Shown here: positions 10,907-23,200 of the stretch, piece after piece
How the letters are laid out: each line of letters opens with the position of its first letter
How positions within the stretch are numbered: the first letter of the stretch is position 1
Assembly: GCA_913057685.1 (NCBI GenBank)
Contig: CAJXOA010000006.1
Coordinates: 1 to 64,000 of the forward strand
Source: an uncultured Trueperaceae bacterium
GTDB lineage: Bacteria; Deinococcota; Deinococci; Deinococcales; Trueperaceae
Direction of reading: 5' to 3'
Length of the DNA: 64,000 bases
Made by a program: the position numbers and the translations under genes
The notes under the pieces: model-generated
The model's input: the letters and a program-made list of their open reading frames with translations, nothing else
What the model was told of the DNA's origin: nothing
The model's database searches: none

Positions 10907-11604
10907 ACCGCGCGCCGGTCGGCCTCCGCGCCCTCGCGGTGCTCGCGCTGCTGGCGTCGGGCGTCGCGACGGCGAACGCGCGACCGTTCGCGACCGACGC
11001 CTGGTCGGTGCAGACGGTCGCCCTCACCGACGTCGGTCGCGCCGACGCGACCGCCGCCGACCTGCGGGCGGCCGGCCTGCCCGCCTTCGTCGAAGCCACC
11101 GTCCGCGACGGCGTGACGTGGCACCGGGTGCGGATCGGCTGTTACGGCGCGGAGGCGGACGCCCGCCTGATCGCCGACCTCGCGCGGGCGGTGGGGGCGG
11201 ACGCCGCGACGGTCGTCCCCCGCGACGGGACGCCCGCGCACGTGCCGTGCGTCGCGCGGGAGATCGGCTTCGTGGCGCCCGACGCCTGGCGGCAGCGGGC
11301 GGACGGCGTCCCGTCGTTCGTCGTCGAGGTGGACGGCGTGCGCGGCGTCCTGCGCTACGGCGACGGCGGCTGGCAGCTCCTGCAGGCGCCGGCGGAGGGC
11401 GGCGTGCGCGACCGGACCGTCGCGCAGGCGGCGTTCGCGCAGGCCGGCCCGCCCGACGCGCCGCACGTGGTGTGGCTCGGGGGGGACCGCCCGACGCCCG
11501 CCTGTCGCGGGGCGCTCCTCGCGCAGACCGAGGACGCCGCGATCGTCCGGACGGGCGACACGGTCGCCGCCTGCCGCCTACGGCCGCCGGAGGCGCTCCC
11601 GTGA
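10903..11604 (+). CDS. secreted SPOR-like domain protein
   Basis: 233 residues. A signal peptide covers residues 1-25 (LRALAVLALLASGVATANA). Next comes a stretch resembling a SPOR repeat (WSVQTVALTDVGRADATAADLR, then WHRVRIGCYGAEADARLIADL), whose YxVQxxaf..a..l..L and vRvG.y..a..A patterns are typical of peptidoglycan-binding SPOR domains. The C-terminal half (residues about 110-233) is unrecognised, with four cysteines that could form disulfides. It probably acts in the periplasm. It overlaps hisH and rapZ by 4 nt each, so it is co-transcribed with cytoplasmic biosynthesis genes, which is an odd setting. Confidence 0.6.
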   Translation: MNRAPVGLRALAVLALLASGVATANARPFATDAWSVQTVALTDVGRADATAADLRAAGLPAFVEATVRDGVTWHRVRIGCYGAEADARLIADLARAVGADAATVVPRDGTPAHVPCVAREIGFVAPDAWRQRADGVPSFVVEVDGVRGVLRYGDGGWQLLQAPAEGGVRDRTVAQAAFAQAGPPDAPHVVWLGGDRPTPACRGALLAQTEDAAIVRTGDTVAACRLRPPEALP

Positions 11605-12509
11605 CGGTCGTCATCGTCACCGGCATGAGCGGCGCGGGCAAGACGACGGCGTTGCAGGCGCTCGAGGACGCCGGCTTCCTGGCGGTCGACAACCTCCCGC
11701 CGGGGTTGTGGCCGGCGTTGGCGCGGGACGTCGCCGCCGCCGGCCTCGACGCCCTCGCGATCGCGATCGACGTGCGCAGCGCCGCCTTCCTGGACGACGC
11801 GACCGCCGCCCTCGAGGCGTTGCGGCGCGACGGCTACGCGCCGCGCGTCGTGTACCTCGACGCGCGCGACGAGACGCTGGTGCGGCGCTACAGCTTCACG
11901 CGCCGCACCCACCCGCTGCAGGGCGGCGGGTTGAGCGAGGAGTTGGCGCAGGAGCGCGACGCCCTCGCCGGCCTCCGCTCGCGCGCCGACGTGGTGATCG
12001 ACACGACGCACGCGACGGCGAAGGACCTGCGGACGCGGATGCAGCGGCTGGTGGGGGACGACGCCTTCGCGTTGCGGGTGCGCTCGTTCGGCTACAAGCG
12101 GGGGGTCCCCACCGACGTCGATACGGTCCTGGACGTGCGGGGGTTGCGCAACCCGTTCTACGAGGCGGACCTGGCGGGCCGCCCGGGGACCGACCCGGCG
12201 GTGCAGGCGTACGTCTTCGCCGACGGGGGGTTGGACGCCTACGCGCGCTTCCGGGACCTGGTGCGGGCGTTGGCGGGGTCGGCGCGCGACGCGGGCCGCG
12301 GGAGCTACACGGTGGCGGTCGGCTGTACCGGGGGGCAACACCGCTCCGTGGCGGTCGCCGAACGCCTCGCGCACGACCTGGCCGACGTCTTCGCCGTCGA
12401 GGCCGGCCACCGCGACCTCGCCGAGGCGTTGGCGGAGCACGGGCACGCCAGCGACGCTGCGCAGGCGGCGGACGGCGCGGACGACGCCGGCGACGCGGAG
12501 CGCGCGTGA
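11601..12509 (+). CDS. rapZ: RapZ/YvcJ-family nucleotide-binding protein
   Basis: 302 residues. Walker A GMSGAGKTTA stands at the N-terminus, with VDNLPP, the RRYSFTRRTHPL motif and the C-terminal domain motif FGYKRGVPTDVDTVLDVRGLRNPFY ... GCTGGQHRSV. In E. coli RapZ is the adaptor that routes GlmZ sRNA to RNase E. In Gram-positives YvcJ binds GTP and small nucleotides. It sits beside yvcK, the conserved pairing across bacteria, but whiA is absent here. The GTG start overlaps the previous stop. The C-terminal 25 residues are an Ala/Asp-rich extension. Confidence 0.93.
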   Translation: MTVVIVTGMSGAGKTTALQALEDAGFLAVDNLPPGLWPALARDVAAAGLDALAIAIDVRSAAFLDDATAALEALRRDGYAPRVVYLDARDETLVRRYSFTRRTHPLQGGGLSEELAQERDALAGLRSRADVVIDTTHATAKDLRTRMQRLVGDDAFALRVRSFGYKRGVPTDVDTVLDVRGLRNPFYEADLAGRPGTDPAVQAYVFADGGLDAYARFRDLVRALAGSARDAGRGSYTVAVGCTGGQHRSVAVAERLAHDLADVFAVEAGHRDLAEALAEHGHASDAAQAADGADDAGDAERA

Positions 12510-14970: not shown

Positions 14971-16507
14971 CGCTCGCCCCACCCTCGCCCCGCCGGCGCG
15001 GGCCCTGTCCGCGCTCGCCGTCGCGGCCCTCGTCGGGGCCGCCCCGCGCCTCCTGGCCGGCCTCCCCACCCCGCTGGACGTGGCGTTCGACGCGGCCGGC
15101 CGGACGCTGGGCGTACCGGCCGTCTTCAACCTCGTGCACGCCCTCCCCGCCGAGGCGGCGCAGGCGGCGAAACCGACGCTGTTCGCGGTCGTCGTCGCGG
15201 TGTGGGCGTTCCTGGCGTGGAGCGTCGCGCGGCGCGCGCCCGGGTGGGCGCGGCGCTGGGGGCGCCTGCGCACCTCGCTCGCGATCGCTGCGGCCGCCAC
15301 CGCCCTCGTCGGCGCGGTCGTCCTGCCGTGGGCGGGGGCGGGCGCCTTCGGGTTGGCGGCGGCGAACGTTGCGTGGCCTCCCCTCCCGCTCCACGCGGGG
15401 ACGGCGGCGTCGGCGTTCGCGCTGGCGTGGGTCGCGACGGGGGGCCGGCGGAGCGCGGCGGCGGCGGACGGCGCGGTGCGGGCCGGACGGCGTGGGGCGC
15501 TCGGGTGGCTCGTCGCCGCGGCGTGGGGCGGCCTGGCGGCGTCGGGTGGGCCGGGGGCGTGGGCGCAATCGGCGTTCCTGGCGGCGACGACGCCGTGGGC
15601 GCGCATTCGCGGGTTGTCGCCGCGCATCACGCCGCCGGCGGAGCACTACACGATCTCGAAGAACCTGACGCCCCCGCGGGGGCATGCGGGCCGCGTGCGG
15701 ATCGACGGGCGGGTGGCGACGCCCCTGTCGTTGAGCGTCGACGACCTGGCGGCGCTACCGTCGGTGACCCGCCCCTCGACGTTGGTGTGCGTCTCGAACC
15801 GGGTGGGGGGCGACCTGATCGGGACGAGCGAGTGGACCGGGGTACGTCTGTGGGACCTGCTGGAGGCGGCGGGGGTGCAGGCGGACGCGCGGGAGGTGGT
15901 GGCGTACGCCGCGGACAACTACGACGATTCCTTCCCGCTGGACGCCGCGCGGGCCGAGGGGACGATTCTGGCGTACCTGCACGGCGGCGCGCCCCTCACC
16001 GCGGAGCACGGCGCGCCGGTCCGCCTGTTGGTGCCCGGTATCTACGGGATGAAGAGCGTGAAGTGGGTGCAGCGCATCGAGCTGCGGACCGACGACCACC
16101 TGGGGTACTGGCAGACGCGGGGCTGGAGCGACGTCGCGACCGTCCGGACCCTCGCGCGCGTCGATACGGACGTCGCGACGGACGTGGGGGACGGAACGTG
16201 GGCGGTGGGCGGCGTCGCCTTCGCCGGCCTGCGGGGGGTGGCGCGCGTCGAGGTGTCGTTCGACGGCGGCGCGTCGTGGCGGGAGGCGTCGCTCGAGGCC
16301 GCCCCGAGCGCGTACGCGTGGCGTCGGTGGGCGTGGGTGGGGGCGCCCGAGGAGGTCGGGGCGACGCCCGGTGGGCGGTTCGACGTGACGGTCCGCGCGA
16401 CCGACGGCGATGGGGTCGTGCAGACCGCGGAGCGGGCGCGGCCCCTCCCGGCCGGCGCGACGGGGCACCACACCCGCACGGTGCGGGTGCCGGACGCCCC
16501 CACCTGA
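14963..16507 (+). CDS. sulfite-oxidase-family molybdopterin enzyme fused to an N-terminal membrane domain
   Basis: 514 residues. Residues 1-215 contain about five hydrophobic helices (for example AAKPTLFAVVVAVWAFLAWSVA). Residues 230-415 form the sulfite-oxidase molybdopterin domain, with YTISKNLTPP and the putative Mo-ligand Cys276 in STLVCVSNRVGGDLIG. The rest is a dimerisation domain with VEVSFDGGASW. No heme-binding domain is present. The substrate is unknown; a periplasmic oxidoreductase with a built-in quinone or membrane partner is a reasonable guess. The ATG lies inside the previous gene's stop region (8-nt overlap). moaC at 49730 shows that cofactor synthesis exists in this genome. 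Confidence 0.8.
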   Translation: MVDARPTLAPPARALSALAVAALVGAAPRLLAGLPTPLDVAFDAAGRTLGVPAVFNLVHALPAEAAQAAKPTLFAVVVAVWAFLAWSVARRAPGWARRWGRLRTSLAIAAAATALVGAVVLPWAGAGAFGLAAANVAWPPLPLHAGTAASAFALAWVATGGRRSAAAADGAVRAGRRGALGWLVAAAWGGLAASGGPGAWAQSAFLAATTPWARIRGLSPRITPPAEHYTISKNLTPPRGHAGRVRIDGRVATPLSLSVDDLAALPSVTRPSTLVCVSNRVGGDLIGTSEWTGVRLWDLLEAAGVQADAREVVAYAADNYDDSFPLDAARAEGTILAYLHGGAPLTAEHGAPVRLLVPGIYGMKSVKWVQRIELRTDDHLGYWQTRGWSDVATVRTLARVDTDVATDVGDGTWAVGGVAFAGLRGVARVEVSFDGGASWREASLEAAPSAYAWRRWAWVGAPEEVGATPGGRFDVTVRATDGDGVVQTAERARPLPAGATGHHTRTVRVPDAPT

Positions 16508-16520
16508 GCGCGGCGCGGCC

Positions 16521-16536
16521 GGTCCGGACCGCGGGG
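16521..16536. repeat. 16-bp repeat copy 1, downstream flank of murA
   Basis: GGTCCGGACCGCGGGG, containing the palindrome GGTCCGGACC, lies in the 31-nt gap between two convergent genes. An identical 16 bp occurs at 17882-17897 on the other side of murA. It may be part of a terminator-like hairpin or a small repeat family. Confidence 0.5.
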
Positions 16537-16538
16537 CG

Positions 16539-17852
16539 TCAGGGGGTGGGCAGGTACGGCCGGTCGGTCGGGTCGGCGGCGGGGGCGCCGGTCCGCTCGA
16601 GGTGCGCACCGAGGTCGGTGAGGCGCGCGTCGAGGCGTTCGTACCCGCGGTCGAGGAACTCGACGCCGCCGATGCGGCTGCTGCCCTCCGCCGCGAGGGC
16701 GGCGACGACGAGCGCCCCGCCGGCGCGGATGTCGGCGGCGTGGACGTCGGCGGCGTGCAGCGCGCCGCCGTCGACGTGCAGGGTGCGCCCGTCGAGGTCG
16801 AGGCGGGCGCCCATCTTGCGGAGTTCGGGGACGTGCGTGAAGCGGTCGGGGTACACCGCGTCGCGGACGCGGGCGGTCCCGGGCAGCGTCGCGAGGTAGG
16901 CGCCGAACGGCGCCTGCAGGTCGGTCGGGAAGCCCGGGTAGGGGGTCGCTTCGACGTCGACGGCGTGCAGCGGTCCGGCGGCGTCGACGAGGACGCCGTC
17001 GTCGGTGGGGTGGATCAGGACGCCGGTCGCTTCGAGGGTCGCGACGACCGCGCCGAGGTGGTCGAGGCGGACGTTGCGGAGTTCGGTGCGGCCGCGGGTG
17101 GCGGCGGTCGCGAGGAGGAAGGTGCCGGCCTCGATGCGGTCGGCGATGGGCGTGAAGGTGGTGCCGTGCAGGCGGTCGGCGCCCTCGACGGTCAGCACCG
17201 ACGTGCCGGCGCCGCGGATGCGGGCGCCCATGGCGTTGAGCAGGTCGACGAGGTCGGCGACCTCCGGCTCGAGCGCGGCGTTCTCGATCACGACGCGGCG
17301 GCTGCCGAGGGCGCTGGCGAGGAGGACGTTCTGGGTGCCGCCGACGGTGGGGGCGGGGAAGCGGACGTGCCCCTCGAGGGGGCCGCGCGCTTCGGCGACG
17401 AAGTCGCCGTCGACCTCGTCGATGTGCACGCCGAGCGCTTCGAACGCCGCGATGTGCCGGTCGACGGGGCGGGGCCCGAAGGCGCATCCGCCCGGGACGC
17501 CGATGCGGGCGTGCCCGGCGCGCCCGAGGAGGGCGCCCATGGCGACGAAGCTGGCGCGCATCTTGCGCACGAGGCGGAACGGTGCGTCGCTGCGGTGGAC
17601 CTCGGCGGCGTGCAGGTGCAGGTCGCTGCCGTCCCACCGCACGTCGACGCCGACGTGCTCGAGGATCTCCAGGCCGACGAGGACGTCGCTGAGTTTCGGG
17701 ACGTCGCGCAACTGAAGCGGCTCGTCGGTGAGGAGGGAGGCGAGGATGAGGTACAGCGCGGAGTTCTTCGCCGACTGGATGCGGGTGCGGCCGGTGAGGG
17801 GCGTCCCGCCGTGGAGGATCAGGGCGGCGTCGTCGTCGCTGCGGGGCGTCAT
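16539..17852 (-). CDS. murA: UDP-N-acetylglucosamine 1-carboxyvinyltransferase
   Basis: 437 residues, EPSP-synthase fold. The catalytic cysteine is present (Cys123 in GVPGGCAFGPRPVD), so fosfomycin would be expected to act on it. Other landmarks are SAKNSAL (usually GAKNAAL), APTVGGTQNVLLAS and YPGFPTDLQAPF. It transfers enolpyruvate from PEP to UDP-GlcNAc, the first committed step of peptidoglycan synthesis. An SD (GGGAGG) precedes the ATG, and a consensus promoter lies about 110 nt upstream, divergent from the RHH/kinase pair. The 3' end converges on the oxidoreductase gene. Confidence 0.96.
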   Translation of the reverse strand: MTPRSDDDAALILHGGTPLTGRTRIQSAKNSALYLILASLLTDEPLQLRDVPKLSDVLVGLEILEHVGVDVRWDGSDLHLHAAEVHRSDAPFRLVRKMRASFVAMGALLGRAGHARIGVPGGCAFGPRPVDRHIAAFEALGVHIDEVDGDFVAEARGPLEGHVRFPAPTVGGTQNVLLASALGSRRVVIENAALEPEVADLVDLLNAMGARIRGAGTSVLTVEGADRLHGTTFTPIADRIEAGTFLLATAATRGRTELRNVRLDHLGAVVATLEATGVLIHPTDDGVLVDAAGPLHAVDVEATPYPGFPTDLQAPFGAYLATLPGTARVRDAVYPDRFTHVPELRKMGARLDLDGRTLHVDGGALHAADVHAADIRAGGALVVAALAAEGSSRIGGVEFLDRGYERLDARLTDLGAHLERTGAPAADPTDRPYLPTP

Positions 17853-17881
17853 CGGCGGGGGCCTCCCGGGGGGCGTGGCGG

Positions 17882-17897
17882 GGTCCGGACCGCGGGG
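17882..17897. repeat. 16-bp repeat copy 2, upstream flank of murA
   Basis: Identical to 16521-16536 in the same orientation, in the murA 5' untranslated region. The two copies bracket murA almost exactly. Confidence 0.5.
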
Positions 17898-17942
17898 GGT
17901 CGGACGCGTCGGGCGTCTCGTGCGTGCGCACCCGGAGGTACG

Positions 17943-17957
17943 TACACATCGTGTGTA
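17943..17957. promoter_or_regulatory. operator-like inverted repeat TACACA-N3-TGTGTA
   Basis: Perfect 6-bp arms with a 3-bp centre, overlapping the predicted transcription start of murA (its -10 box ends at 17963). The size and symmetry fit a dimeric repressor site. The RHH-like protein encoded 90 nt away is a possible but untested ligand. Confidence 0.45.
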
Positions 17958-17962
17958 GGTCC

Positions 17963-17991
17963 ATGCTAGGCAGGACGACCCACATTGTCAA
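17963..17991 (-). promoter_or_regulatory. murA promoter, TTGACA-N17-TAGCAT
   Basis: On the minus strand, -35 TTGACA occupies 17991-17986 and -10 TAGCAT occupies 17968-17963, with an exact 17-nt spacer. This is a near-consensus housekeeping promoter. Its -35 overlaps the -35 of the opposite promoter almost completely. Confidence 0.8.
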
Positions 17992-18014
17992 GACGATGAG
18001 GCTCGCGCTACACT
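17985..18014 (+). promoter_or_regulatory. promoter for the RHH/kinase operon, TTGTCA-N18-TACACT
   Basis: -35 TTGTCA at 17985-17990 and -10 TACACT at 18009-18014, with an 18-nt spacer. It shares five bases of its -35 with the divergent murA promoter. It is followed by an AAGGAGG SD (18038-18044) before GTG 18049. Confidence 0.75.
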
Positions 18015-18048
18015 GCCGTCACTGCATCCCCAGGGGCAAGGAGGCGCC

Positions 18049-18267
18049 GTGCCGAAACGCGAGAAGAGCAAACGGTTGCAGGTCGTCATCAGCGAAGCGC
18101 AGGACTCCCTGCTCACGAAGACCGCCTACCGCCTCAGCAACCCCGAGCGGTTGGTCTCGAAGTCGGAGGTCGTCCGCCTCGGGATCCAAATGCTGAACCG
18201 GGCGGTCGAGGAGGGCGAACTCGACCCCGCGCTCCTGAACGACCTCGACGGCGACGACGACGCCTGA
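18049..18267 (+). CDS. small ribbon-helix-helix-like protein
   Basis: 72 residues, starting at GTG with a strong AAGGAGG SD 4 nt upstream. A basic N-terminus and beta-strand-like KRLQVVIS precede two helices (EAQDSLLTKTAYRL; SKSEVVRLGIQMLNRAVEEG), the pattern of MetJ/Arc DNA-binding proteins. It has an insertion between the helices and an acidic Asp-rich tail. It could be an autoregulator of its own or the murA promoter. It is followed after 4 nt by a protein kinase gene, so the two are probably co-transcribed. DNA binding is inferred from pattern only. Confidence 0.65.
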   Translation: MPKREKSKRLQVVISEAQDSLLTKTAYRLSNPERLVSKSEVVRLGIQMLNRAVEEGELDPALLNDLDGDDDA

Positions 18268-18271
18268 CGCG

Positions 18272-20137
18272 ATGTTCGACGTCGGCGACGTACTGGCGGA
18301 CCGCTACGAGATCGAGGGCCCGCTCGGGCAGGGCGGCATGGCGCACGTCTACGCCGCCTACGACCGGCACCTCGAGCGCGGCGTCGCCCTCAAGGTCCTC
18401 CGCCCGCACCTCACCGAAACCGACGCGGAACGCTTCCGCCGCGAGATCCGCGCGCTGGCGCGCCTCTCCCACCCCGGCATCGTCACGATCCTCGATCTCG
18501 GGACCGACGACGTCGTGTACTTCGCGATGGAACGCATCACCGGCGGGACGTTCACCGACCTGGGACCGTGGGAGGACGACGCCGCCTCCGGCGTGCGCCT
18601 CCTCGACGCCGCGATCGTGGTGGCGGAGACGCTCGGGTACGTCCACGAGCTCGGCATGGTGCACCGCGACCTGACCCCCCGCAACGTCCTCCTCACCGAC
18701 CGCGGCGCCCCCAAGGTGATGGACTTCGGCCTCGTCCAACTCACCGAAAGCGACGGGGAACTCACCCGCACCGGCACGACGCTCGGCACGCCGCACTACA
18801 TGGCGCCCGAACAGGCGACCGGCGCACCGACCGGTGCCGCCACCGACCTGTACGCGCTCGGCGCGGTCCTGCACCGCACCCTCACCGGCGAAGCGGCGTT
18901 CGACGCCGACAACGACCAGGCGGTCCTCTACCAGCACGTCTACGGCGACGTCGCCTCCGCCCGCGACGTCAACCCGCTCGTCCCTCCGGACCTCGCGCGG
19001 CTCGTCGCCGCCCTCCTCGCCAAGGACCCCGCCGACCGGCCCGCCTCGGGGTACGCCGTCGCGGACGCCCTCCGCGACGTCGCCGACACCGTCCGGGAGC
19101 GGGCCGCCGCCCACCCGCACGGCGGCGCGGCCGCCACCGGCGTCCACCCCGCCGGGCCCACCGCCCCCGACCCCCCGACGGTGCGGTGGCGGACCCACCT
19201 CCGCGCCGGCCCGCAGTGGCCGGCCGGCCTCACCGCCCGCGACGGACGGATCTTCGTCGCCACCCGCGCCGACGCCGTCGCGGTCCTCGACGCCGCGCGC
19301 GGCACGCCCCTCGCGACCCTCGACCTGCCCGACGAGGCGGCCTCCCCCGCCCTGGCGACCGCGCGGGCGGTGCACGCAACCAGCCGCGACGGGGCCCTGT
19401 CGACGTTCGCGTGGCCGGACGGCGCCCTCCGCGCGCGCGACGACGCGGCCGGCGCGGTCGGCGTCGTCGCCGTCGGCGAGGACCTGCTGGTGGCGCGCGA
19501 CGTCGGTGCCCTCGAACGCCGGACCGCCGAGGGCACCGTCCGCTGGAGCGCCGCGCTCGACGCGCCCGCCGCCCTCCCCCCCGTCGTGCATCAGGGGGTC
19601 GCCCTCGCCGCCGACGCCGACGGCGGCCTCCTCGCCGTCGGCCTCGGTGGCGGCGACGTGCACTTCCGCGCGCACCTCGCCGCCGCCCCCGCCGCGTTCG
19701 CGGCGTCGGCCGGCACGGTCGTCCTGCAGGAGCGCAGCGGGGAGCTGCACGGCTTCGCGCTCGCCGCGCACGACGTGCAGTGGAGTTTCGGGCTGGACGC
19801 CGACGTGTACGGCCCCCCGGCGATCTGGGCGGGCCGCGTCTACCAGGCGGGCTGGTCGGGGGCGCTGCACTGCCTCTCGCTCCGGACCGGCGACGCCCTG
19901 TGGGAGCGCCCCCTCCCCGGGGCGGCGACCGCCGCCCCCGTCGTCGCGCGCGGCCGCGTGTGGGTCGCGACCGAGGGCGGGGAGGTCGCCGGCTTCGACG
20001 CGCGCGACGGACGCCCCGTCGGGACGGTGTCGGTCGCCGCCGCCCCGATCCAGGCGTCGCCCCTCCCGCTCGGCAACCGCCTCGTCGTGGCGGCGACCGA
20101 CGGGACCGTCGTCGCGCTCGCCGCGCCAACCGCCTGA
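18272..20137 (+). CDS. serine/threonine protein kinase with PQQ-like beta-propeller
   Basis: 621 residues. The N-terminal Hanks-type kinase domain (about 1-275) has the Gly loop LGQGGMAHVY, VALKVL, a catalytic loop HRDLTPRNVLL (Thr in place of the usual Lys of HRDLKPxN), DFG in VMDFGLVQL, and APE. A Pro-rich linker leads to repeated blades (residues 300-621) such as GLTARDGRIFVATRADAVAVLDAARG, typical of PQQ-like propellers that bind small ligands or proteins. I see no TM helix, so it should be cytoplasmic, unlike PknB-type receptor kinases. It sits 4 nt after the RHH-like gene. Convergent with gltB. Confidence 0.88.
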   Translation: MFDVGDVLADRYEIEGPLGQGGMAHVYAAYDRHLERGVALKVLRPHLTETDAERFRREIRALARLSHPGIVTILDLGTDDVVYFAMERITGGTFTDLGPWEDDAASGVRLLDAAIVVAETLGYVHELGMVHRDLTPRNVLLTDRGAPKVMDFGLVQLTESDGELTRTGTTLGTPHYMAPEQATGAPTGAATDLYALGAVLHRTLTGEAAFDADNDQAVLYQHVYGDVASARDVNPLVPPDLARLVAALLAKDPADRPASGYAVADALRDVADTVRERAAAHPHGGAAATGVHPAGPTAPDPPTVRWRTHLRAGPQWPAGLTARDGRIFVATRADAVAVLDAARGTPLATLDLPDEAASPALATARAVHATSRDGALSTFAWPDGALRARDDAAGAVGVVAVGEDLLVARDVGALERRTAEGTVRWSAALDAPAALPPVVHQGVALAADADGGLLAVGLGGGDVHFRAHLAAAPAAFAASAGTVVLQERSGELHGFALAAHDVQWSFGLDADVYGPPAIWAGRVYQAGWSGALHCLSLRTGDALWERPLPGAATAAPVVARGRVWVATEGGEVAGFDARDGRPVGTVSVAAAPIQASPLPLGNRLVVAATDGTVVALAAPTA

Positions 20138-20147
20138 CGCGCCCGCC

Positions 20148-20236
20148 GGGGCGTCCCCGCATGCGGGCACGTCCCCGCGAACGGGCACGTCACCGCGTGC
20201 GGGCCCGACGCCGCGTGCGGACGCGTCAGCGCGCGC
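20148..20236. repeat. degenerate 18-bp tandem repeat between the kinase gene and gltB
   Basis: About five consecutive units of roughly 18 bp (the two middle ones read GGGCACGTCCCCGCGAAC and GGGCACGTCACCGCGTGC) fill the convergent gap, and the last runs over the gltB stop codon. The units could form hairpins and may serve as a bidirectional terminator. No U-tract is present. Confidence 0.6.
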
Positions 20237-23200
20237 GGGCGGAGGCGGGCAACCCGACCGTCGACAGCGAGCGCTCCGCGAACCAACTGCCGACGTCGCT
20301 CGTCTCGCGCCCCGGCAGGTCGCGGGGCGCGACCCGCCAGAAGGCGGTGCGGTACGCCGCCCACCGGTCGAGGATGCGGCGCGCCTTCGGGCTGCGGGTC
20401 GCGGCGGCGTGCCGCTCGAGGAGGCGCAGGAGGAGCTCCTCGTCCGGGCCCCCCACGAGCCGGTCGACGTCGACCGACGCGGGGTTGTAGCGGCCGTCGA
20501 AGGTCCCCTCCTCGTCGAGGACGAACGCCACCCCGCCGGACATGCCGGCCGCGAAGTTGCGGCCGGTGCGGCCCAGCACCACGACGGTGCCGCCCGTCAT
20601 GTACTCGCAGCCGTGCTCCCCGCAGCCCTCGACGACGACGTGCCCGCCGGAGTTGCGGACGGCGAGGCGTTCCCCCGCCGCGCCGGCCGCGAACAAGCGC
20701 CCGCCGGTCGCGCCGTACAGGACGGTGTTCCCCAGCAGCACCGGCGTCGTGGGTTCCTCCTCGCGGTGCAGCGCCCGCAGGACGATCTCGCCCCCCGACA
20801 TGCCCTTCCCGACGTAGTCCTGCGCCTCCCCGCGGAGCGCGAGGCGGACGCCGGGCACGAGGAACGCCCCGAAGCTCTGCCCGACGGGCCCGTGGAAGCG
20901 CAGGCGGACGGTGCCCTCGGGGAGGCCCTCCTCGCCGTACGTGCGGGCGATCTCCCCGGAGAGCCGCGCGCCGATGACGCGGTCGCGGTTCGTCGTGTCG
21001 TACCCGCGGTCGCTGCGCCCGAACTCCTCGAGGTCACGCCAGACGTCCTGCCACACGCGCTCGTCGAGCGGCTCCCCACCGGGCCGGTCGTTGCGCGGGT
21101 GGACGTTGCGCAACGTCGCGTCGGGCGTGACGTGCGCGGCGTCCAGCAACGCCGAGAGATCCACCCGACCGCCGCGCGGCAGCTCCACGTCGCGGGCGAC
21201 CAGCAGGTCGCTGCGCCCGACGAGCTCGTCGAGGCTGCGCGCCCCGAGGGCGGCGAGGTGCTCGCGGACCTCCTGCGCGACGAACCGCATGAAGCGCACG
21301 ACGTGCTCCGGGTCGCCCTTGTAGCGCGCGCGGAGGTCCTCGCGTTGCGTCGCGACCCCGACGGCGCACGTATTCAGGTGGCACTGGCGCAGCATCGCGC
21401 AGCCGGCGGAGACGAGCGCGGCGGTCCCGAAGCCGAACTCCTCCGCGCCGAACACCGCCCCCATCACGACGTCGCGCCCGGTCTTCAGGCCGCCGTCCAC
21501 CCGCAACGTCACGCGCCCCCGCAGGTCGTTCTCGACCAGGACGCGTTGGGTGTCGTGCAGCCCCAGCTCCCAGGGGACGCCGGCGTGCTTGATGCTGCTC
21601 AGGGGGCTGGCGCCCGTCCCGCCGTCCGCGCCGGAGATCTGGATGTTCGCGGCGTAGCCTTTGGCGACGCCCGCGGCGATCGTCCCGACGCCGTGCGTCG
21701 AGACGAGCTTCACGCCGATGCGGGCCTCCTTGTTGACGCGCCCGAGATCGTGGATGAGCTGCGCGAGGTCCTCGATCGAGTAGATGTCGTGGTGCGGTGG
21801 GGGACTGATCAACGTCACGCCGGGCACCGAGTGGCGGATGCGTCCGATCTCCTCGTCGACCTTGAAGCCGGGGATCTGGCCGCCCTCCCCCGGCTTGCTG
21901 CCCTGCGCCATCTTGATCTCGATCTCCCGCGCGGTCGTCAGGTAGCGCGCCGTGACGCCGAACCGTCCCGACGCGACCTGCTTGATGGCGCTCGCGCCGT
22001 GGTCGCCGGCGACCGGGTGCCAGGCGGCCTCGGACCGGTCGGGCCGGTCGCGGTCGTACGGTTCGTAGCGGACGGGGTCCTCGCCCCCCTCCCCGCTGTT
22101 CGACTTCGCCCCGAGCCGGTTCATGGCGATCGCCAGGGTCTCGTGCGTCTCGCGGCTCACCGCCCCGTGGCTCATCGCCTGCGTCGTGAAGCGGCGCGCG
22201 AGCGCGTCGACCGACTCGACCTCGTCGAGGGGAACCGGCGCACCGAGCGGCGTGACGTCGAGCAGGTCGCGGATCGTGGTCGGCGTCCGCTGGTGCACCA
22301 GGTCGGCGTAGCGACGGTAGGCGTCGGCGTCGTCCTCGCGCACCGCAACGTGCAGGGCCTTGAACACCGCCGGTTCGAAGGCGTGGTACTCCCCCTGCTT
22401 GCGGAAGCGGTAGACGCCGCGGTCCCGCAACGCCGGCGCTTCGCCGTACGCTTCGGCGTGGAAGGCGAGGACGTCCCGCGCGAGGGTGGGGAGGCCCACC
22501 CCCCCGAGGTGCCCGAAGGTGCCCTTGAAGTAGCGCTCGAGGACGTCGGCGTCCAGCCCGACGGTTTCGAAGATCTGCGCGGCGCGGTAGCTGCTGATCG
22601 TCGAGATCCCCATCTTCGACATGATCTTCAGCAGGCCCTGCTCGACCGCCGTGCGGTAGTTCCGCACCGCGGCGTCCGGCGTCGGGGGGGCGTCGTCGCG
22701 CTTGACGTGGTCCGCGACGTCGCGGGCCGTGGCGAACGCCAGGTAGGGGTGGATCAACGCCGCGCCGTAGCCGATCAGGGCGGCGTAGTGGTGGTCCTCG
22801 CGCGGTTCCGCGGACTCGAGGATCAACGCCGTCCGCGTCCGCAAGCCCTCGCGGATGAGGCGGTGGTGGACCGCCGCGGTGGCCAACAGGGCGGGGATGG
22901 CGGCGTGGTCGGCGTCGATGCCGCGGTCGCTGAGGATCAGCAGGCCGGCGCCGGCCCGCACCGCGTCGGCGGCGGCGTCGCAGAGCGCCTCGACCGCCGG
23001 CTCGAGCGCCTCGGGACCGCCGGCGACCGCGAAGGTCGTGGACAGCCGCGCGACCTGGAAGCGGTCCTGCGCCTCGATCCACGCCAGTTGCGTCGCGTCG
23101 ACGAGCGGCCCGTCGAAGCGCAGCACCGCGGCGAGCGCCTCGTCGTGGTCGAACAACGGTGCGCGCGGCCCGACGGTCGTCTCGAGGCTCATGACGGTGC

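Follow-up and report, generated by a model that had tools for sequence, protein, structure and literature searches.

A repeated operator at murA, ddl and murF probably marks an undescribed repressor of cell-wall building-block synthesis in relatives of Thermus and Truepera

Essential precursors of the cell wall are made by MurA, Ddl and MurF, the first of which is the fosfomycin target. Circuits of the PASTA kinases PrkA and PknB act on MurA. Evenly spaced short boxes are typical of RHH operators, and the operator of the RHH repressor MetJ has a spacing of 8 bp. Transcriptional control of wall precursor genes has also been described, among others for VxrB of Vibrio. The accessible part of a 2026 review (PMC13204101) lists as transcriptional regulators DdlR (ddl, C. 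difficile), CodY (murA, murC and murD, L. lactis) and VxrB (murA-E, ddlA and others); the strings "ribbon" and "Deinococc" are absent from that part. YvcK in Listeria is a PASTA-kinase substrate tied to wall homeostasis, according to the accessible part of PMC5091766. Searches of the open-licence literature returned no described RHH-type regulator of murA, murF or ddl in Deinococcus-Thermus, although one may be described elsewhere, and the same searches turned up no account of how the supply of these precursors is controlled in the Thermus-Truepera line. The repeated site presented here probably points to an undescribed master repressor that controls the making of cell-wall building blocks in relatives of Thermus and Truepera.

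The locus lies in a 64-kb stretch of DNA, the whole of which is termed the window; its features are collected in Table 1. A first-pass annotation of this DNA had placed a murA promoter and the promoter of an RHH/kinase operon back to back, with -35 boxes that overlap by five bases, and the promoter scan recovers both where they had been put. The minus-strand murA promoter has a 17-bp spacer and 10/12 matches, the plus-strand promoter an 18-bp spacer and 9/12 matches, and the two -35 hexamers overlap at 17986-17990. These are the only promoter-like hits in 16000-21000, where 50 shuffles gave a mean of 0.0. With +1 placed 7 nt beyond the -10 hexamer, the predicted murA +1 falls at about 17956, at the edge of the palindrome TACACA-N3-TGTGTA that the annotation had also reported (TACACATCGTGTGTA, 17943-17957). 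The murA start codon (17852) is ~104 nt beyond this point, and "murA start" refers here to the predicted transcription start. The palindrome is indeed present and unique: allowing up to one mismatch, TACACANNNTGTGTA occurs once in the 2,289,026-base genome, at murA, and TACACA/TGTGTA occurs in the window at 17943 and 17952 only. Position 17934 scores highest of 63,977 window positions with a 24-column murA matrix, whose 35 rows include the window's own site.

Table 1. Genes, promoter hexamers and operator boxes of the murA-RHH region, in window coordinates
Feature	Position	Strand	Basis or remark
murA, UDP-GlcNAc 1-carboxyvinyltransferase, 437 aa	16539..17852	minus	TIGR01072 461 bits (cut-off 392.7); EPSP_synthase E 1.5e-74
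Operator box 1 position, degenerate here (GGAGGT)	17934..17939		Inferred from 9-bp register
Operator box 2 TACACA, core of putative regulator site	17943..17948		Offset -43 conserved in relatives
Operator box 3 TGTGTA, 9 bp from box 2, on predicted murA +1	17952..17957		Box at -34 conserved
Operator box 4 position, degenerate here (CCATGC), overlaps murA -10	17961..17966		Inferred from 9-bp register
murA -10 hexamer TAGCAT	17963..17968	minus	Promoter scan; ends at 17963
RHH-kinase operon -35 hexamer TTGTCA	17985..17990	plus	Promoter scan and conserved column profile in relatives
murA -35 hexamer TTGACA	17986..17991	minus	Promoter scan; 5 bases common with divergent -35
RHH-kinase operon -10 hexamer TACACT	18009..18014	plus	Promoter scan; ends at 18014
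72-aa RHH-like protein, TTHA0139 ortholog (PDB 5ytp, 5ytq), proposed regulator	18049..18267	plus	hmmsearch, fold comparison
PknB-like Ser/Thr kinase, C-terminal PQQ/BamB-type repeats, 621 aa	18272..20137	plus	Pkinase E 3.9e-42, PQQ_2 E 4e-27

Judged by sequence and fold comparison, the 72-aa protein is an ortholog of TTHA0139 of Thermus thermophilus HB8. The two match over nearly their whole length (hmmsearch E 1.8e-33), and a model of the 72-aa protein matches TTHA0139 with a Foldseek E of 1.1e-05 and a VIA Z of 8.8 over 65 residues; near full-length similarity, single copy and the same neighbourhood, which characterize the TTHA0139 family, are all found. The PDB entries 5ytp and 5ytq are of the TTHA0139 L34A variant, and no paper on TTHA0139, 5YTP or neighbouring locus tags was found in the open-licence literature. 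Pfam and NCBIfam do not recognize the 72-aa protein at their cut-offs. When 20 family members are compared with individual profiles, Pfam RHH_1 matches two (best E 0.48), ParD_antitoxin one (E 0.075) and the aCcr1 family 11 (best E 0.0083). RHH proteins are recognized by a conserved strand segment and by S-x-S-E-V-V-R opening the second helix, and the family displays this pattern: K8 R9 L10 Q11 V12 V13 and S37 K38 S39 E40 V41 V42 R43 are invariant in 20/20 sequences, and all except one of these residues are invariant in 61/61, the remaining one being conserved in at least 90%. Single-sequence folding gave a poor two-helix model (pLDDT 72, pTM 0.38), which is superseded by a monomer model from an alignment of 61 orthologs (A4; pLDDT 85) with residues 1-14 extended without an assigned strand and helices at 15-28 and 37-54. 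The nearest folds after TTHA0139 are the RHH proteins NikR (Z 4.6), ParD2 (Z 4.4) and ParD1 (Z 4.2), which are weak matches over 44-46 residues. On balance, the model leans towards the RHH arrangement of an N-terminal strand, paired in the dimer, and two helices.

A profile search finds the RHH gene in single copy in 106 of 111 genomes of the phylum (the order-, class- and phylum-level searches cover the same 111), and the five genomes without a match have completeness values of 65-91%. Scanning the species genomes of GTDB yielded 67 RHH loci in Trueperaceae, Thermus, Meiothermus, Calidithermus, Thermaceae and other Deinococcota; the genus Deinococcus is absent among them, which does not prove its absence because the scan needs exact peptide patterns. 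An assignment as a type II antitoxin of the ParD or CopG kind was rejected, with no toxin gene alongside in 13 loci read by eye; the gene after RHH is the kinase or, where the kinase is missing, one of varied unrelated genes. RHH and murA are divergently adjacent in 65/67 loci of the GTDB set and in 54/58 loci of a second set, and the two sets have many genomes in common. The exceptions are one locus without murA and one contig end in the former, and one insert between the genes, two unlinked pairs and one contig end in the latter. murA itself has one match per genome in the 10/10 genomes searched.

The promoter layout is shared by relatives. A murA-side -35 (xGTCAA) is present in 79/85 unique upstream regions, 77 of which have at least two of the three key murA -10 bases 16-18 bp off, and the best -10 fit is at 17 bp from the -35 in 76/79 anchored regions. 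On the RHH side, a -10 of the form TGCTAnAnT is conserved at its offset (68-85% per conserved base, 75 regions), and the overlapping -35 boxes with an RHH -10 18 bp away belong to the conserved layout. The 75-region profile has four boxes at offsets -52, -43, -34 and -25 from the shared -35, with the consensus TGnGYA-N3-TACACA-N3-TRCTCA-N3-TGAG and a 9-bp period. The box at -52 is TGnGYA, that at -43 TACACA, that at -34 mostly TRCTCA or else TGTGTA, and that at -25 TGAG, which overlaps the murA -10; the array extends from the murA -10 to ~+24. The window palindrome corresponds to boxes 2 and 3 of this array, and boxes 1 and 4 are degenerate in the window genome. TACACA stands at -43 in 59/75 anchored regions and in 31/44 after removal of near-duplicates. 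Counts such as 59/75 carry no probability because related species are counted singly, and the conservation argument rests on the 31/44 non-redundant count and on the contrast within the region, where box 2 has 1.13-1.55 bits per base versus 0.03-0.37 at 12 of the 17 positions between the murA -10 and -35. Conservation of the palindrome upstream of murA in relatives and linkage of the small gene to murA elsewhere had been set as tests by the first-pass annotation, and both came out in its favour.

The profile counts above take in all anchored regions. The operator alignments were trimmed: A2 retains 35 of 44 non-redundant sites, with nine mis-anchored sites or sites of atypical box placement dropped by eye, and A3 retains 66 of 78, with 12 more divergent sites dropped. 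A model of 35 murA operators (R1, trained on murA sites only) fails to report the window's own site despite its training row because boxes 1 and 4 are degenerate there, and of 21 atypical loci only 11 gave an R1 site with E no greater than 1. The site accompanies murA also where RHH is not its neighbour. In G006 and G007 (G and L numbers denote genomes and loci), murA and the RHH gene are on different contigs, and murA is still preceded by boxes spaced at 9 bp. R1 gives no report at these unlinked murA genes; the murA-only matrix scores 23.3 (G006) and 16.3 (G007) against a 99% control level of 8.9, and both sites outscore all 10 other tiles of their locus. TGTGTAANNTGYGTAAGC, a pattern drawn up after viewing both sites, occurs once in each of these genomes, at murA. 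Their MurA proteins are more divergent (49% and 46%) and may be replacements. In G038, the operator stays on the murA side of an insert (R1 E 2.8e-06). This insert (L031, L142) is IS-like, with inverted ends and a short flanking duplication seen by eye, and lies between the -35 and the -10 of murA; its end contains a TTTACA that, again by eye, is at about -35 distance from the murA -10.

The operator is not confined to murA. Run on 22 genomes with E up to 10, R1 gave 44 unique places by our own count; murA accounts for 14 of these and the region upstream of RHH in G007 for one. By our reading, the remaining 29 comprise ddl (six), murF (seven), glmS (one), a PBP1A-family gene (one), MNIO-type genes (two) and 12 places elsewhere or with no clear gene; sites without a clear peptidoglycan gene were not counted as support. 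Gene identities were checked by profile for murF (L161, L169, L171, L174), ddl (L166, L168, L163, L172, L181, L176), Mur ligase (L184, L185, L177), glmS (L160), the PBP1A family (L192), MNIO (L179, L193) and murG (L179), which follows the gene at one of the two R1 MNIO-type sites. The murF of L161 is above the TIGR01143 cut-off, those of L169, L171 and L174 are just under it (276.8-284.6 versus 288.6), and the PBP1A-family gene is under its own (407.8 versus 508.75); for these genes below cut-off, the family named is the best-scoring one. In 41 genomes, a further model, R2, gave 53 unique sites with E values of at most 0.5, of which 36 are at murA (16), ddl (15) and murF (5), a count that is circular because R2 was trained on such sites, so that the murA-only tests are the fair ones. 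Its other 17 sites are, by our reading, at a PBP1A-family gene (one, with another 0.6 kb from it), glmS (one), MNIO-type genes (three), DUF4153 genes (two), a VIT-domain gene (one) and eight unrelated genes or places with no clear gene, including genes for UvdE and for an ankyrin-repeat protein and a region next to an ORF that resembles a mobile element.

Several less familiar genes also carry the site. An MNIO/PF05114-type gene starts at the operator or shortly downstream of it in three genomes (L179 1147-1974, minus; L193 1966-3024, plus; L307 2040-2831, plus), with murG next in one, and is a candidate new wall gene. In two genomes, the operator is just upstream of a DUF4153 membrane protein gene (L183 2045-3538 and L303 2029-3537, both plus). 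Operator-like sites lie near the start of VIT-domain proteins in three genomes of two families (L182 2044-4023, plus; L304 1-795, minus; L186 1907-4027, plus), two of which have a VWA domain within the stretch read. In G042, two genes for ankyrin-repeat proteins, both with N-termini that resemble signal sequences, have such sites at their start (L178, L180).

A targeted search was made with the 24-column matrix from murA sites only across -250 to +50 of 57 ddl and 50 murF genes, with 997 tiles from the same loci as control. The 99th percentile of the control is reached at 36/57 ddl and 40/50 murF regions (Mann-Whitney p 1e-17 and 2e-22, respectively), while 21 ddl and 10 murF regions have no site. 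For comparison, 60 column-shuffled matrices gave means of 3.6 (ddl) and 3.8 (murF) with maxima of 14 and 17, and changing the box spacing from 9 bp left three ddl and five murF regions at 8 bp, and 10 and nine at 10 bp. Some genes within the tested set were already R1-positive (ddl of G003, G004, G009 and G019; murF of G007, G009 and G038); other R1-positive genes lie outside it (ddl of G020 and G021; murF of G042, G048, G051 and G056). Regulon membership is lineage-dependent because, in the genus that holds Thermus, none of five ddl genes has a site (L262, L263, L265, L266, L270) and all five murF genes do (L292, L293, L296, L297, L298). G004, whose RHH protein is closest to that of the window, has a strong ddl site (L196). 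In the window genome itself, the ddl upstream region is cut by a contig end, murF is without a site (L197, L239) and TGTGTANNNTACACA is absent with up to two mismatches, so that this genome demonstrates the operator at murA only. A promoter of score at least 8 in the expected direction, of a clear TTGAC type, accompanies 19 of 33 ddl sites, and the first box begins 1-6 bp (11 sites), 7-12 bp (three) or 13-18 bp (five) after the -10 start; at murF, a nearby promoter of that score accompanies 5 of 40 sites only.

One operator thus recurs at murA, ddl and murF in several taxonomic families, as expected of a regulon for peptidoglycan precursors, and the proposed unit is larger than first thought because of this recurrence. 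The sequences themselves show the box array with its register and conservation, the return of the operator at ddl and murF, and the pairing of RHH with murA throughout the phylum; from them we infer that the 72-aa protein is the operator binder and a repressor. Our main reading, to which we assign a probability of about three in four, is that the RHH protein represses peptidoglycan-precursor synthesis as dimers on 9-bp-spaced boxes at murA, ddl and murF. Dimers would sit side by side on 6-bp boxes (T-R-N-N-Y-A) every 9 bp and, as the murA boxes cover its -10 and +1, bound protein would block RNA polymerase on murA. The overlapping -35 boxes suggest that polymerase uses one divergent promoter at a time, and the shared -35 would then be available to the RHH(-kinase) operon while murA is repressed. 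At ddl the operator coincides with the promoter or follows it closely, and at murF it lies a short way ahead of the gene, so that a single protein could govern the output of MurA, for the first committed step, as well as that of Ddl and MurF, for the D-Ala-D-Ala step; in single genomes, the regulon may also take in glmS, the PBP1A-family gene and the murG operon. The inducing signal is perhaps the adjacent kinase or a wall precursor. Counting against this reading, the RHH gene is too universal for protein loss to be correlated with site loss. Also against it are the strong murF site of G055, the ddl and murF regions that lack a site, the scarcity of promoters near murF sites, the poor match to Pfam RHH_1 and the window genome, in which the operator is seen at murA only.

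A tentative possibility is that the downstream kinase is the sensor and phosphorylates RHH, thereby releasing the peptidoglycan genes, which would be a transcriptional counterpart of the PrkA-ReoM-MurA pathway. The kinase gene begins five bases past the RHH stop codon, retains HRD- and DFG-type motifs and is found downstream of RHH in 43/55 and 41/63 testable loci. A rapZ gene (11601-12509) and a CofD/YvcK-family gene (to 13855), both on the plus strand, lie 2.7 kb from murA, which fits this idea in view of the role of YvcK in Listeria; genes of both kinds are also close to murA in several Trueperaceae. Against a sensor role, Meiothermus, Calidithermus and several other lineages keep both the operator and the RHH-murA pair, yet the retrieved stretch yielded no kinase downstream of RHH there, and the window kinase scores 265 bits against a cut-off of 450 for the NCBIfam PASTA-kinase family NF033483. 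The RHH-murA pair is the more constant unit because the kinase is downstream in part of the loci only. The repressor-or-kinase circuit on murA proposed in the first-pass annotation therefore divides: its repressor half is well supported by the comparisons, and its kinase half stays tentative. We consider unlikely the combined scenario in which the TTHA0139-type protein is the master repressor of the Thermus-Truepera branch and a co-transcribed PQQ-repeat kinase (Trueperaceae, Thermus) senses wall state and phosphorylates it; MurA, Ddl and MurF would then be linked to a PknB-like kinase at the level of transcription.

It is distinctly improbable that a different transcription factor binds the operator of a real regulon and that RHH is just the conserved neighbour of murA. 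Such a factor would suit G055, which has a strong murF site (L255) and no RHH gene found in its 90%-complete draft, where the lack of the gene may be an assembly gap or a real loss. It sits poorly with RHH sharing the operator-bearing intergenic region as the divergent neighbour of murA in nearly all loci of both sets, with the resemblance of RHH to DNA-binding folds (weak scores) and with an equally spaced short-box array typical of RHH operators such as that of MetJ. In G007, where murA is elsewhere, RHH still has a weak operator-like site in front of it (L062 4842-4859, R1 E 0.58), which also speaks for RHH itself. This site offers only a hint of self-regulation because the best matrix match upstream of RHH in G007 (score 15.0) differs from TTTACACATAGTACTCA, which was read by eye.

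The sign of regulation could also be reversed or mixed if RHH activates, or both activates and represses, for example by stimulating its own promoter from about -70. Seen from the RHH promoter, the boxes are indeed on the upstream side, at about -71 in the window, and most murF sites have no clear promoter nearby from which a sign could be read. We regard this as very unlikely given that the murA boxes run from the -10 and the ddl boxes start at or just after the -10; repressors usually act at positions from -10 or just after, and the box positions at murA (-10/+1) and ddl suit a repressor that excludes RNA polymerase. Ordinary divergent promoters with a palindrome by chance are scarcely credible, common as overlapping divergent promoters are in compact genomes, since the palindrome is unique in its genome, in register across relatives and repeated at ddl and murF with strict 9-bp spacing.

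If repression by RHH is correct, it gives a likely function to a protein with a solved structure and no paper found, with its operator named base by base, and it is testable in the tractable organism Thermus thermophilus. TTHA0139 is the closest known counterpart of the 72-aa protein, and in Thermus relatives murA is likewise arranged divergently, with the same array of boxes. Regulators such as DdlR, CodY and VxrB likewise place murA or ddl under transcriptional control, as far as the accessible part of PMC13204101 describes them; DdlR differs as a GntR-family protein, and neither CodY nor VxrB is presented there as an RHH protein. ParD/CopG antitoxins are weakly alike in fold, whereas the 72-aa family has no toxin gene seen alongside and is a single-copy neighbour of murA. 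PASTA kinase circuits have in common with this locus a PknB-related kinase domain, the same physiological theme and a YvcK-family gene nearby. The window kinase differs in its PQQ/BamB-type C-terminal repeats, with no PASTA repeats among its family hits (the repeats match PQQ_2), and the conserved link here is a DNA-binding-type protein. A parallel in design is offered by multi-box RHH repressors such as MetJ, in which a small RHH dimer occupies short boxes of fixed spacing over the promoters of one pathway. The present operator differs from that of MetJ in its 9-bp rather than 8-bp spacing, in its box sequence and in its location at peptidoglycan instead of methionine genes, and the 72-aa protein, unlike MetJ, has no separate ligand domain visible.
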